A DNA stretch of 51,464 nt from Gallionella sp. (GTDB taxonomy: Bacteria; Pseudomonadota; Gammaproteobacteria; Burkholderiales; Gallionellaceae), in assembly GCA_027311105.1 (NCBI GenBank), contig DAICZN010000113.1:1-51464 (forward strand), written 5' to 3'. Each line of letters opens with the position of its first letter. Within the stretch, counting starts at the first letter, position 1. Made by a program: the position numbers and the translations under genes. The notes below the pieces were generated by a model. The model was not told where the DNA came from, did not search any database, and worked only from the letters and a program-made list of their open reading frames with translations. Of the stretch, positions 30,661 to 36,682 are shown one piece after another.

Positions 30661-31755
30661 TTAAAAGCGTATATGCGTGGAAGCATTGAACGTGGAACGA
30701 GAACCGCGCCAATCGTCGATCAGATATTTGGTGAACGGCAATTCGGTCTTCTCGAAGAAACGCGGCCAGCCGATGCGGTCTATCCAGTCAGCCATGCGCT
30801 CCCATGGGCGCGCATCATCCTTGTAAACTGTCAATATCCGCTTGACCACAACGCTGACTTCGGGCCATCTTGGGGGATTATTGGGCAGGCCAGACGCGAC
30901 CATCTTCATGAAAGTCGGCTTGCCGCGGGCGTTCGAATTTTTGCCGCCCACCCAGATCGCCAGCTTGGAATACTCCGGATCATTGATTTGCATCGGCGGA
31001 CAGGGAGGATAGCAGGCCCCGCAGCACATGCATTTGGTCTCGTCGATTTCCAGGGACGGCTTGCCGTTCACCATGGCCGGGCGTATCGCCGCGACCGGGC
31101 AACGTGCCACCACTGTCGGACGCTCGCATACATTGGCGACCAGGTCGTGATTGATCACGGGCGGCTTGGTATGTTGCACGATGATCGCAAGATCAGCCTG
31201 TCCGCCGCAATTGATCTCGCAGCATGAGGTCGAAAGATGAACGCGATTGGGCATTTCCTCGCGCTTGAACTCAACGATCAGATCATCCATCAGGGCTTTG
31301 ACCACGCCGGATGCGTCGGTGCCCGGAATATCGCAGTGCAGCCAGCCCTGGGTATGGGCGATCATCGAAATCGAGTTGCCGGTCCCGCCCACCGGGAAGC
31401 CATGCTTTTCCAGTTCAGCGATCAACGGGGCGACCTTCTCCGCCTTGGACACCATGTACTCGATGTTGGAGCGGATCGTGAAGCGCACATGCCCTTCCGC
31501 GTATTTGTCGGCGATATCGCACAACAAACGAATGGTTCCCACGTCCATTTGACGCTGTGTGCCGGCACGCACCGTCCAGATCTGGTCGCCGCTGTGCGCC
31601 ACGTGATGCAACACTCCCGGGCGTGGGCGGTCATGATATTTCCAGTTGCCGTAGTTCTTCGCCATCAACGGATGCAGATACTTCTTGTTGTCGGGCACCC
31701 CGGTTTCCTTGGGCTTGCGCTTTGCGGCGGGTTTTTCTTGAACTGCTTGGTTCAT
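30661..31755 (-). CDS. dsrB: Dissimilatory sulfite reductase beta subunit
   Basis: CCEINCGGQADLAIIVQHTKPP; ferredoxin CMCCGACYPPCPPM. Confidence 0.97.
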   Translation of the reverse strand: MNQAVQEKPAAKRKPKETGVPDNKKYLHPLMAKNYGNWKYHDRPRPGVLHHVAHSGDQIWTVRAGTQRQMDVGTIRLLCDIADKYAEGHVRFTIRSNIEYMVSKAEKVAPLIAELEKHGFPVGGTGNSISMIAHTQGWLHCDIPGTDASGVVKALMDDLIVEFKREEMPNRVHLSTSCCEINCGGQADLAIIVQHTKPPVINHDLVANVCERPTVVARCPVAAIRPAMVNGKPSLEIDETKCMCCGACYPPCPPMQINDPEYSKLAIWVGGKNSNARGKPTFMKMVASGLPNNPPRWPEVSVVVKRILTVYKDDARPWERMADWIDRIGWPRFFEKTELPFTKYLIDDWRGSRSTFNASTHIRF

Positions 31756-31766
31756 TTTATGTCTCC

Positions 31767-33074
31767 TCAGGCGGCTTGCTGCTTTTTGATTTTCTGGGCG
31801 TTGATCTTGGCAACTTCCTCATCCCAGCCATCGGTGCGGACATATGGATTGGTGCGGGGGGTGGAAACCATGTTCGGATCGACTTCGACTTCCACGCCTT
31901 CCAGGAAATTGATCAGGCCGATACGCTCGATCATCTCGCCGGTACGCTCGTGCTCGAGCGCGTTTTCCGCAAAAAAGTCTATGGTGCGCTGTCCCAGGTC
32001 AACCAGCTTCTGCACATCCTCATCCGTTTCAAGTTTCATGAAAGGAATAATGACCGTGCCCATCAGGCCGCCGATCTTCAGTGTGCTCTTGCCGCCGACC
32101 AGCACGCTCGCACCCTTGTCCTTGCCGGGAGCCAAAGCACCGGTCATCACATTGATACAGTGCATGCAACGCACGCAATCATGGTTGTCGATCTCTATTG
32201 CGTGAGTGTCACTGATCGCAACGCTGGAGATACTCGGGCCGGTTTTGACATTCTTGATCTGCTTGAGCTGGAAAGTCTTGGTCGGGCAACGGGCCACAAC
32301 GTCGTTCACCAGCTCGTCCATGCCATGCTTGGCAAACCACTGCTTGGCCATCGCCTCATCGGTGCGAATGTTGTCGCGCCAGGTTCCGATCACCGCCATG
32401 TCGGCACGCTGCACCGAATTCATGCAGTCGTTCGGACAGCCGGAAAACTTGAACTTGAACTTGTAGGGCAGGGAGGGACGGTGTATGTCATCCAGAAAAG
32501 TGTTCAGGACGCTGCGCTGCGCCTTGGCTTCGTCGTAACAGGACTGTTCGCATCGCGCCGCACCCACGCAGGACATCGAGGTGCGCACTGCCGGTCCCGC
32601 GCCGCCGAGGTCAAAACCCATCTCGTTGATCTCGTCAAAAGCCTTCTGCACGTTGTCGGTGGTCGCGCCCTGAAACATGATGTCACCGGACTGGCCATGG
32701 AACGCAATCAGGCCGGAGCCATGCTTCTCCCAGATGTCGCAAAACTGGCGCAGCGTATCGGTATCGTAGTGCATACCTGCGGGAGGCATCACGCGCAGGG
32801 TATGAAATTCAGTGCAATCCTCGTAAACCGGCTTGCCGGCTTCATCCTTCAGTTCGGTGAAGCGCGGGATAATCCCGCCGCCGTAACCAAACACTCCGAC
32901 CGTACCGCCCTTCCAGTAGCCCTTCTTGGTCCGGTATGAAGTCTCAAGCTGACCGAGCAGGTCGACAACATAATCTTTATCCTTGGCCAGCTCTTTCAAT
33001 CCAGTCACAAAACTGGGCCACGGTCCATCCTCGAGTTGATCCAGGTTTGGGGTATCATGCATCTTCTTAGCCAT
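31767..33074 (-). CDS. dsrA: Dissimilatory sulfite reductase alpha subunit
   Basis: Sirohaem/Fe-S motifs CVGAARCEQSCYD and KFKFSGCPNDCMNS; ferredoxin CVRCMHCINVM. Confidence 0.98.
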   Translation of the reverse strand: MAKKMHDTPNLDQLEDGPWPSFVTGLKELAKDKDYVVDLLGQLETSYRTKKGYWKGGTVGVFGYGGGIIPRFTELKDEAGKPVYEDCTEFHTLRVMPPAGMHYDTDTLRQFCDIWEKHGSGLIAFHGQSGDIMFQGATTDNVQKAFDEINEMGFDLGGAGPAVRTSMSCVGAARCEQSCYDEAKAQRSVLNTFLDDIHRPSLPYKFKFKFSGCPNDCMNSVQRADMAVIGTWRDNIRTDEAMAKQWFAKHGMDELVNDVVARCPTKTFQLKQIKNVKTGPSISSVAISDTHAIEIDNHDCVRCMHCINVMTGALAPGKDKGASVLVGGKSTLKIGGLMGTVIIPFMKLETDEDVQKLVDLGQRTIDFFAENALEHERTGEMIERIGLINFLEGVEVEVDPNMVSTPRTNPYVRTDGWDEEVAKINAQKIKKQQAA

Positions 33075-33249
33075 AATAATCTTCCTTTCAGTCGCGTTGC
33101 CCGTAGCTTGCTGCTGGCAAACGATTTAATGACCCGGCAGAGACGGGGGAATTGGTGATCCGGCTGAACTCATCCGCTGTGATACTGCGGTATGTCCATC
33201 TTCGTTGATCTATTAGCATCCTACGATATATTGCCTCGTGCATTCCATC

Positions 33250-33284
33250 ACCCTTAGCGGGTATCTTCAATAACCCTTAAGGGT
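33250..33284. promoter_or_regulatory. Doubled palindrome ACCC-N5-GGGT / 10 nt / ACCC-N4-GGGT in the dsrA divergent promoter region
   Basis: ACCCTTAGCGGGT (33250-33262), ATCTTCAATA, ACCCTTAAGGGT (33273-33284). Same geometry recurs at 38939-38973. Confidence 0.6.
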
Positions 33285-33412
33285 AGTAGTGTGCCTTCCC
33301 CCAGTAGTATTCCAATCTGAAGCAGATTGAAGATACACTTGGATGAATAAAATGACTCGTTCAGAGCGATCTGCAAGGGTACCGTCATTTAACCTGATCA
33401 AGGGCAACTGTA

Positions 33413-33637
33413 ATGACACAAATCAGCGAATTGGCCAGATTCAAGGTTCCTTTGGGAAGCCAGGAAATCGAATTGCAGCAGATAGATCATGTCGAGGGCG
33501 GTATGAGCCTGATGCGCATACGCATTCGGGAAGGCAAACGTTTCACCATTTTCGACATCGATCCTGATACGGCTCAATATTGGGCGGCGGCTATGCAACG
33601 CTGGGCTGATACACAGAAACTGGCAGCGAATGACTGA
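33413..33637 (+). CDS. Small protein of unknown function, 74 aa
   Basis: MTQISELARFKVPLGSQEIELQQIDHVEGGMSLMRIRIREGKRFTIFDIDPDTAQYWAAAMQRWADTQKLAAND; overlaps next gene by 8 nt (translational coupling). Confidence 0.75.
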   Translation: MTQISELARFKVPLGSQEIELQQIDHVEGGMSLMRIRIREGKRFTIFDIDPDTAQYWAAAMQRWADTQKLAAND

Positions 33638-34244
33638 CAACAATCTTCCCGACATGGTCGATATGGTATTCGATCTGGACGGCGGCATGTTACCCGCCGA
33701 CTATCGCTTTGCGCTCTGGACCGCATTGTTGCGCCTGGTCCCACGGTTCGCCGAAGAAAAGCGGGTCGGGGTGCTGCCGTTACGCTCGACAGTCAACAGT
33801 CAGGGTATGTTGCTTGCCAAACGCGCCAAGCTGGCAATACGCATGCCGACCACATTTGCCGGGTCTGCCGCATCCGGCTTGGCCGGGCAGCAACTCGATA
33901 TAGCGGGGAGTGCCATGCGCCTCGGGGCTGCCAAGACGCGCACTATCCAGCCCTACCCGACTATTCACGCCCAACTGGTAACCGGCTCCAGTGATGAAGT
34001 GCTGTTCGTGGAAGACATCGGCAAACAGATGGGGGAGCTGGGCGTTACGGGAAAACTGATCTGCGGCAAGCGCCTGTCCGTCTGCAGCGGCCAAAGAGAC
34101 ATCCATGGCTACAGCCTGGTTCTGCATGACCTGAAACCGGAAGCATCATTACAATTGCAGTATGCCGGCCTGGGTGATGACCGCCAATTTGGTTGCGGCA
34201 TTTTCGTACCCTACAAAGTCATTACCGGCTTGAGTGAAGATTGA
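33630..34244 (+). CDS. Cas6/Cmx6-like (type I-MYXAN Cas6-like) protein, no CRISPR context
   Basis: VDMVFDLDGGMLPADYRFALWTALLRLVPRFAEEKRVGVLPLR...LLAKRAKLAIRMPTTFA...GQQLDIAGSAMRLGAAKTRTIQPYPTIHAQLVTG with C-terminal Gly-rich GLGDDRQFGCGIFVPYK. Pattern recalls the Cas6/Cmx6 family. Confidence 0.65.
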   Translation: MTDNNLPDMVDMVFDLDGGMLPADYRFALWTALLRLVPRFAEEKRVGVLPLRSTVNSQGMLLAKRAKLAIRMPTTFAGSAASGLAGQQLDIAGSAMRLGAAKTRTIQPYPTIHAQLVTGSSDEVLFVEDIGKQMGELGVTGKLICGKRLSVCSGQRDIHGYSLVLHDLKPEASLQLQYAGLGDDRQFGCGIFVPYKVITGLSED

Positions 34245-34275: not shown

Positions 34276-34605
34276 ATGGGCTATACCGTAGCAGGCAGAG
34301 AAGTTGAAACCGATGATGATGGCTACTTGCTGGAGCCGGATTATGGCGACGAAATTGTAAACGTCATCGCCGCGGCAGAAGGCATTGAGCTGACACCCAG
34401 GCATTGGGAAGTCGTAAAATTCATGCGCGACCAGTACCGCGAACACGGGCACACGCCGAATTTCCGCAATATGCTGAAAGGCGTCAATGAATTCTGGCCC
34501 GAAGCGGACAGCAAAGCGCTGTATGATTTATTTCCGACCGGCCCGGCCAAACAGGGTGCAAAAGTCGCCGGCCTGCCCCAGCCCTATGGCAAGGGCGGCT
34601 ATTGA
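34276..34605 (+). CDS. DsrC/TusE superfamily protein lacking both C-terminal cysteines (RspA-like)
   Basis: DsrC-like (VETDDDGYLLEPDYGDEIVNVIAAAEGIELTPRHWEVVKFMRDQYREHG) ending AKVAGLPQPYGKGGY; no Cys in the entire protein. Confidence 0.88.
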   Translation: MGYTVAGREVETDDDGYLLEPDYGDEIVNVIAAAEGIELTPRHWEVVKFMRDQYREHGHTPNFRNMLKGVNEFWPEADSKALYDLFPTGPAKQGAKVAGLPQPYGKGGY

Positions 34606-34673: not shown

Positions 34674-35159
34674 ATGAGTACTAAAGACTTGCATGCCAAT
34701 GTAAAGCTGGATATGCGCGGCCAGACCTGCCCCGCACCGCTGCTCGGTGCCAAGCGCGTGGTCGACGACCTGAAAAAGGAACAGGTTCTGCTGCTGATCT
34801 CGGACTGCCCGGGCACCAGGGACGATCTTTTTTCATGGGCGGAGCAGACCCACAACAAGGTGCTGAAAACGGAAACCATGCCGGATGGCGGCACAGGCTA
34901 CTACGTCATGAAAGGCAAGGGAGAATCGCACCAGGCAAATGTCATACTCGACATTCGCGGCGTGCATTGCCCGGGACCCATCGTGGAAGCCAGGAAGCTG
35001 CTGAACGGAATGAAAGTCGGCGAGACCCTCAAGCTCATCAGCAACTGCCCCGGTATCCGCTCCGACATCGTCGGCTGGGCAGACACGACCAGTGTAAAGA
35101 TTGTCAGCACGGTCGAAACGGCCCCGGGCGAATATGAATTTTTCCTGCAAAAGGGCTGA
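34674..35159 (+). CDS. Fused tandem TusA (TusA-TusA) sulfurtransferase
   Basis: Two TusA/SirA domains with LDMRGQTCPAPLLGAKR and LDIRGVHCPGPIVEARK. Confidence 0.92.
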   Translation: MSTKDLHANVKLDMRGQTCPAPLLGAKRVVDDLKKEQVLLLISDCPGTRDDLFSWAEQTHNKVLKTETMPDGGTGYYVMKGKGESHQANVILDIRGVHCPGPIVEARKLLNGMKVGETLKLISNCPGIRSDIVGWADTTSVKIVSTVETAPGEYEFFLQKG

Positions 35160-35806: not shown

Positions 35807-36682
35807 ATGCAAAATCCGTTCGATCTCGACAACCCCTCGGCTTATCTGCGCTGGCGCGATCACAAGCTGGCCCGCGCTATCTCCGGCGCCGGCGAACTGG
35901 TCGTCGAAGTCAACAAGCCCTACGCCCTGACTGCCGCTGAACATGCCGCGCTGCTGGATCGTTGCCAGCGCGGCAACATGGCGATTTATGCAAGCCACGC
36001 CGCTGCTGACGAAGATACCGTGCGCCGGTTCGGGCTGCAGTGCGGGCTGGCCAGCTTGGACGCCAACTGGCTGGCCGGCGAACAGGGCATTACGCGCGTC
36101 ACCGTATGCGCAGGTGACGGGCAGCGCCAGGCTTATATCCCCTATACCGACCGCGCCATCAAGTGGCACACCGACGGCTATTACAATCCGCCCGAACGGC
36201 TGATACGCGGCATGGTGATGCATTGCGTGCAGAGCGCCGGGCAAGGCGGCGGTAATCGCCTGCTGGACCATGAGATCGCTTACCTGATGTTGCGCGATGA
36301 AAACAGCGACTTCATACGCGCGCTGTCCGCGGCGGATGCGATGACGATACCCGAACGCACCGACGAACAGGGTGTGGCCCGCGCCGCACAGGCCGGTCCG
36401 GTGTTCTCGGTCGACCCGGCCAGCGGGACACTGCACATGCGCTATACCGCCCGCACCCGCAGCATAAAATGGAAACAGGACGCCGCCACATTGGCGGCTG
36501 TGGCCGCTCTGGAAAAACTGCTGGCATCCGCCCTGCCCCATATCCACAGCGTGACACTCGAGCCCGGCATGGGGCTGCTGTGCAACAACGTGCTGCATGA
36601 TCGCGCAGCCTTCAGCGATGAACCGGACAGCCCGCGCCTGCTGTTCCGGGCGCGCTACCACGAGCGCATCACAGCCGGCTGA
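35807..36682 (+). CDS. TauD/TfdA-like Fe(II)/2-oxoglutarate dioxygenase
   Basis: Putative HxD metal motif KWHTDGYYNPPERLIRGMVMHCVQ and distal LLCNNVLHDRAAFSDEPDSPRLLFRARY. Confidence 0.75.
   Translation: MQNPFDLDNPSAYLRWRDHKLARAISGAGELVVEVNKPYALTAAEHAALLDRCQRGNMAIYASHAAADEDTVRRFGLQCGLASLDANWLAGEQGITRVTVCAGDGQRQAYIPYTDRAIKWHTDGYYNPPERLIRGMVMHCVQSAGQGGGNRLLDHEIAYLMLRDENSDFIRALSAADAMTIPERTDEQGVARAAQAGPVFSVDPASGTLHMRYTARTRSIKWKQDAATLAAVAALEKLLASALPHIHSVTLEPGMGLLCNNVLHDRAAFSDEPDSPRLLFRARYHERITAG

Follow-up and report, generated by a model that had tools for sequence, protein, structure and literature searches.

Cas6 proteins carry a glycine-rich loop that is their RNA-contacting hallmark. The closest described relatives of the protein analysed here are the type I-MYXAN and type I-B Cas6 proteins, including Cmx6, those of cyanobacterial plasmids (loci L165-L169, L171 and L172) and 8fcj_B, the Cas6 of the type I-B CAST. 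The Cas6 proteins of Haloferax and P. furiosus are RAMP endoribonucleases. In H. volcanii the catalytic histidine is His-41 (PMC3945376), while the S. solfataricus Cas6 is reported to lack a catalytic histidine and to use lysine or arginine in catalysis (cited in PMC3945376; PMC3652601). Cysteine-less DsrC-like proteins and TusA sulfurtransferases are found in dsr clusters; members of these families are operon partners of the present protein, neighbours and not homologues.

The window is the whole stretch of Gallionella sp. DNA analysed, 51,464 nt in length. Its features, and those of related loci, are itemized in Table 1. The start of the cas6-like gene is overlapped by the DUF6967 ORF by 8 nt. 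The gene order given in the first-pass annotation, with this overlapping 74-aa frame, a divergent dsrA and DsrC-like and TusA-type genes downstream, is borne out. The DsrC-like protein terminates in GKGGY in place of GCV. This end is nearly invariant in >100 homologues, and 100 of 124 homologues contain no cysteine at all. The 198-aa protein stays beside dsrA and DUF6967 even in genomes that have lost Cas6.

Table 1. Features of the window and of related loci (positions within the window unless a locus is given).
Feature	Position	Strand	Basis
dsrB, followed by dsrEFHCMK on the same strand	30661..31755	-	
dsrA, divergent from the DUF6967-Cas6 operon	31767..33074	-	TIGR02064, 500.8 bits
Three spaced ACCC-N4-GGGT dyads, dsrA-DUF6967 intergenic region	33249..33311	.	
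DUF6967 protein, 74 aa	33413..33637	+	PF22295, 109.3 bits (cut-off 27)
dsr-associated Cas6 homologue, 204 aa	33630..34244	+	PF09559, TIGR02807, 8fcj_B, Foldseek to Cas6
DsrC-like protein without both DsrC cysteines	34276..34605	+	PF04358, 115 bits
Tandem TusA-TusA protein, both CPxP motifs kept	34674..35159	+	PF01206, two stretches; conserved columns
Unknown module protein, 198 aa	35183..35779	+	Syntenic homologues; no match in Pfam or NCBIfam
TauD/TfdA-type Fe(II)/2OG dioxygenase-like protein	35807..36682	+	PF02668, 62 bits; syntenic
DUF6967 at non-Burkholderiales dsr loci	L186 5563-6618; L187 9720-10121; L188 9481-9696; L189 9342-9650		
74-aa ORF between TauD and DUF6967	L188 9693-9917		
DUF6967-Cas6 fusion	L145 5022-5993; L148 5031-5996		
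PF09559 Cas6 of Gloeobacter morelensis plasmid pGMOR1	L170 5971-6762		

Judged from its sequence, the Cas6 family identity of the 204-aa product is unambiguous. It matches PF09559 with 179 bits (E 1.1e-52; Pfam cut-off 26.7) and TIGR02807 (cas6_cmx6) with 142.9 bits (NCBIfam cut-off 98.85), both curated cut-offs being exceeded along the full length, and six Cas6 models of PADLOC match it as well. The proposal of a Cas6/Cmx6-like product is thus upheld, and the sequence motifs quoted in its support are present. The only significant relative of solved structure found by sequence is 8fcj_B, which a profile of 44 dsr-linked Cas6 proteins matches at E 1.6e-33. The AF2 model of the protein was built from five sequences and is of low confidence (pLDDT 61, pTM 0.59). 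Its top Foldseek matches are nevertheless the Cas6 chains 8fcu and 8fcj (6e-12), with Cas6 again from rank 3, and 5yi6 and 3qjj (Cas6) as secondary matches. The double RRM/ferredoxin-like fold expected of Cas6 was therefore found, albeit on a model of this quality. Lack of any match to Cas6 structures, which the first-pass annotation would have taken as refutation, did not occur. Viral carriage was considered and rejected, a single scan of viral contigs having revealed no relative of the protein.

The dsr-linked Cas6 proteins form one clade (support 100/99), apart from a comparison set of nine PF09559 proteins. This set consists of 8fcj and eight proteins encoded on cyanobacterial plasmids, seven of which belong to cas operons. 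The dsr-linked proteins share 27-30% identity with the type I-MYXAN and I-B proteins, together with the same C-terminal GxG...GCGxFxP loop; this glycine-rich loop and the predicted RAMP fold are also held in common with the Haloferax and P. furiosus enzymes. In the 125 dsr-linked proteins examined (85 from Gallionellaceae and 40 from other families) the loop is intact, with G180, G182 and G190 in all and G188 in 124. In contrast, none of the 125 has histidine at position 41, which is histidine in six of the nine comparison proteins, there within the motif LHxxK. Position 41 is assigned as the counterpart of the catalytic histidine of other Cas6 proteins by motif, from its place after the first helix. 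The assignment rests on motif position because an hhalign alignment with P. furiosus Cas6 (a sequence with Y31, H46 and K52 in place) covered only the region of the glycine loop and did not extend that far. By this assignment the usual catalytic position is changed in every member, and the dsr-linked proteins have no counterpart of the histidine of the Haloferax and P. furiosus enzymes, from which they differ also in being tied to sulfur metabolism. Four residues are new to the clade: E123 (all), C145 (119/125), H166 (116/125) and K196 (124/125). Comparison of the window protein with relatives of 65-94% identity gives dN/dS of 0.12-0.24, and the gene is therefore under purifying selection.

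The neighbourhood survey proposed in the first-pass annotation reveals an association with dsrA that is conserved across the order Burkholderiales. The window belongs to the family Gallionellaceae, its closest named loci being those of Gallionella MAGs. Within 150 genomes of this family PF09559 Cas6 is found in 85, DUF6967 in 86, dsrA over the cut-off in 82 and a Cas1-family match in 66. dsrA is present in 81 of the 85 Cas6 carriers and in one of the 65 non-carriers (Fisher p 3e-36). The four carriers without a full match are draft assemblies in which dsrA is incomplete or missing, and in the single dsrA genome without Cas6 (G005) DUF6967 lies at a contig end. A sample of 250 genomes from the order contains 46 Cas6 carriers, all with dsrA (split or partial in two). 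Five dsrA genomes of this sample lack Cas6, with interference from contig ends in two; in three genomes Cas6 has gone while DUF6967 and the gene of the 198-aa protein remain beside dsrA, so that Cas6 is not indispensable. Second copies of dsrA, present in several genomes, are without the Cas6 module. Amongst 299 Pseudomonadota dsrA exceeds the cut-off in 51, and the four with Cas6 are exactly the Burkholderiales dsrA genomes. At all 127 loci that have the two genes on the same contig (about 120 genomes) they are divergent, with a median start-to-start distance of 532 bp and only two exceptions >1.2 kb. Cas6 is a fixed part of the dsr cluster in one large order, and not a stray gene.

DUF6967 adjoins Cas6 in the genomes of the family, and at the loci surveyed an overlap of 7-23 nt between the two frames is common. 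One genus has a natural fusion of the two in a single reading frame (L145 and L148; the same genes occur in L120 and L124). An apparent third fusion, in L140, was an artefact; the locally built DUF6967 profile contained a fused protein and therefore matched every Cas6 frame, and only the fusions of L145 and L148 proved real when read. DUF6967 is predicted to fold as b-b-b-b-a (pLDDT 84). Foldseek found nothing significant in the PDB, PUR-alpha repeats, Whirly and SRP-Alu proteins recurring at E above 0.5. These weak neighbours of a predicted model are a hint of a nucleic-acid-binding fold, not evidence for one. In a sample of 274 genomes from the phylum DUF6967 occurs in eight, four from Burkholderiales and four from outside the order. 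At the latter four dsr loci it adjoins dsrA and is accompanied by a TauD-like gene, but Cas6 is missing, and the DUF6967-Cas6 pair is therefore not obligate. From these loci it is inferred that DUF6967 and the TauD-like protein are the older companions of dsr, and that Cas6 is an addition made in Burkholderiales. At one of them (L188) a siroheme-synthase-like gene was read downstream.

The region between dsrA and DUF6967 contains an array of ACCC-N4-GGGT dyads, present as three copies spaced by about 23-25 bp in Gallionella. With at most one mismatch the array is found in 80 of 95 intergenic regions, compared with nine of 95 shuffled ones. It is probably a regulator-binding array; it resembles a DNA operator of two-turn spacing for the divergent promoters, with LuxR/NarL-like as a guess at its type. 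An RNA target in the leader of dsrA or DUF6967 was sought using RNAalifold on 27-28 leaders and rejected, the energies (-1.5 and 0 kcal/mol) not going beyond those of column shuffles. No conserved hairpin was found in these two leaders, and an Rfam search of the window gave no match.

Could this be an ordinary CRISPR Cas6 that lies in the dsr locus by chance and serves arrays elsewhere in trans? NCBIfam names the protein a CRISPR Cas6, and 33 of the 85 carriers in Gallionellaceae have a Cas1-family match. However, 52 of the 85 have none, and with a match in 33 of the 65 non-carriers there is no association between Cas6 and Cas1 (p 0.18). A search for repeat arrays in the 51-kb window turned up nothing resembling CRISPR, in line with the first-pass annotation, and the rest of its genome (65% complete) yields no Cas1 match, no DevR-type Cas7 and no Cas3 core that exceeds the cut-off. 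Across 11 carriers, of which ten have nearly complete genomes, neither a DevR Cas7 nor a Cas3 core exceeding the cut-off was found. The cas genes or array expected at the locus of a CRISPR Cas6 are absent; the protein is always at dsr, and forms a separate clade with dsr synteny throughout. Co-occurrence confined to CRISPR systems would have refuted the reading of the first-pass annotation, but Cas6 tracks dsrA and not Cas1. On the Cas1, Cas7 and Cas3 searches service to arrays in trans was rejected, and it is strongly disfavoured to the point of being scarcely credible. Since two defining features of CRISPR Cas6, the position of the histidine and the context of cas genes or array, both fail, the protein is not filed as a type I-MYXAN Cas6. 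It differs from that class further in its four new residues and in its dsr operon with DUF6967.

Two other explanations concern function. The Cas6 fold might have a role not involving RNA, as a protein adaptor or a persulfide- or ligand-binding factor in the Dsr sulfur relay or the maturation of DsrAB, acting through C145, H166, E123 and K196. C145 and H166 are absent from all nine comparison proteins, and a siroheme-synthase-like gene lies by DUF6967 at one locus outside the order. The neighbouring cysteine-less DsrC-like protein and double TusA suggest a sulfur relay, and a role at the protein level is therefore the main rival. Yet the glycines of the loop are strictly kept, and neither C145 nor H166 is retained by every member. 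Such a role is considered unlikely, if still a serious possibility. Alternatively the protein may have stayed an endoribonuclease whose active site has moved (H25, H49, H195 and K196) and which processes dsr mRNA or a small RNA; the S. solfataricus enzyme provides a precedent for catalysis without the histidine. Outside Gallionellaceae histidine is found at position 25 in 29 of 40 proteins (and in most of the comparison set), at position 49 in 30 of 40 and at position 195 in all 40. Within Gallionellaceae, however, position 25 is Tyr in 84 of 85, position 49 is Leu, Ile or Val in 83 of 85 and position 195 is mostly Tyr, and the dsrA and DUF6967 leaders offer no conserved hairpin as substrate. 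Retained cleavage is improbable.

The preferred explanation is exaptation. On this reading a PF09559 Cas6 of I-MYXAN/I-B-like type was recruited once, in the lineage of dsr-bearing Burkholderiales, into the operon divergent from dsrAB, and then kept by purifying selection in the absence of CRISPR. It would form a complex with DUF6967, as inferred from the overlapping frames and the natural fusion. This complex may be a non-cleaving binder of structured nucleic acid, with RNA the likeliest ligand; binding is inferred because the glycine loop is kept and the b-b-b-b-a fold is predicted for DUF6967. The lack of a conserved hairpin in the dsrA and DUF6967 leaders and of any Rfam match counts against it. 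Binding would tune the expression of the dsr locus or its products according to the state of the sulfur relay, with the cysteine-less DsrC-like protein and tandem TusA as companions. The homology to Cas6, the grouping in one clade, the almost obligate linkage with dsrA and DUF6967, the independence of Cas1, the changed histidine position, the intact glycine-rich loop and the new residues are observed, and are regarded with high confidence. Exaptation of Cas6 is well supported and the role with RNA is an inference; for the explanation taken as a whole, from single recruitment to a non-cleaving binder regulating dsr, the chances of being right or wrong appear about equal. A more specific form, in which DUF6967-Cas6 is a sulfur-responsive RNA-binding switch and persulfide delivered by TusA to C145 of the non-cleaving Cas6 changes its grip on dsr RNA, is speculative and has only a slim chance of being correct.

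No mention of Cas6 in dsr clusters was found in the literature searched (including PMC6397845, PMC10734462, PMC11406059 and PMC7596348), nor any report of a Cas6 tied to DsrC-like or TusA proteins or stably maintained within a metabolic operon. Most subscription papers and all preprints lay outside these searches, and novelty is unproven. The Gloeobacter plasmid (L170) likewise encodes a Cas6 without annotated cas genes, in a run with a cupin protein, a member of the PAPS-reductase family and proteins of unknown function. Because H25 and H41 are both retained, this Cas6 may be either a further case of use outside CRISPR or a remnant.

Annotation pipelines name these dsr-linked genes type I-MYXAN Cas6/Cmx6, and false calls can therefore enter surveys of CRISPR in Gallionella and in other Burkholderiales that bear dsr. 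The absence of CRISPR and of the usual catalytic histidine suggests that a defence protein has been recruited into energy metabolism. Conserved across an order, altered at the usual catalytic position in every member and tied to a pathway at the core of the sulfur cycle, this Cas6 lends itself to the study of how a CRISPR protein leaves immunity. It is equally a lead on the regulation of reverse Dsr, in which DUF6967 and the 198-aa protein may have a part as well; were the C145-persulfide switch true, the state of the sulfur relay would be coupled to expression of the reverse dissimilatory sulfite reductase.
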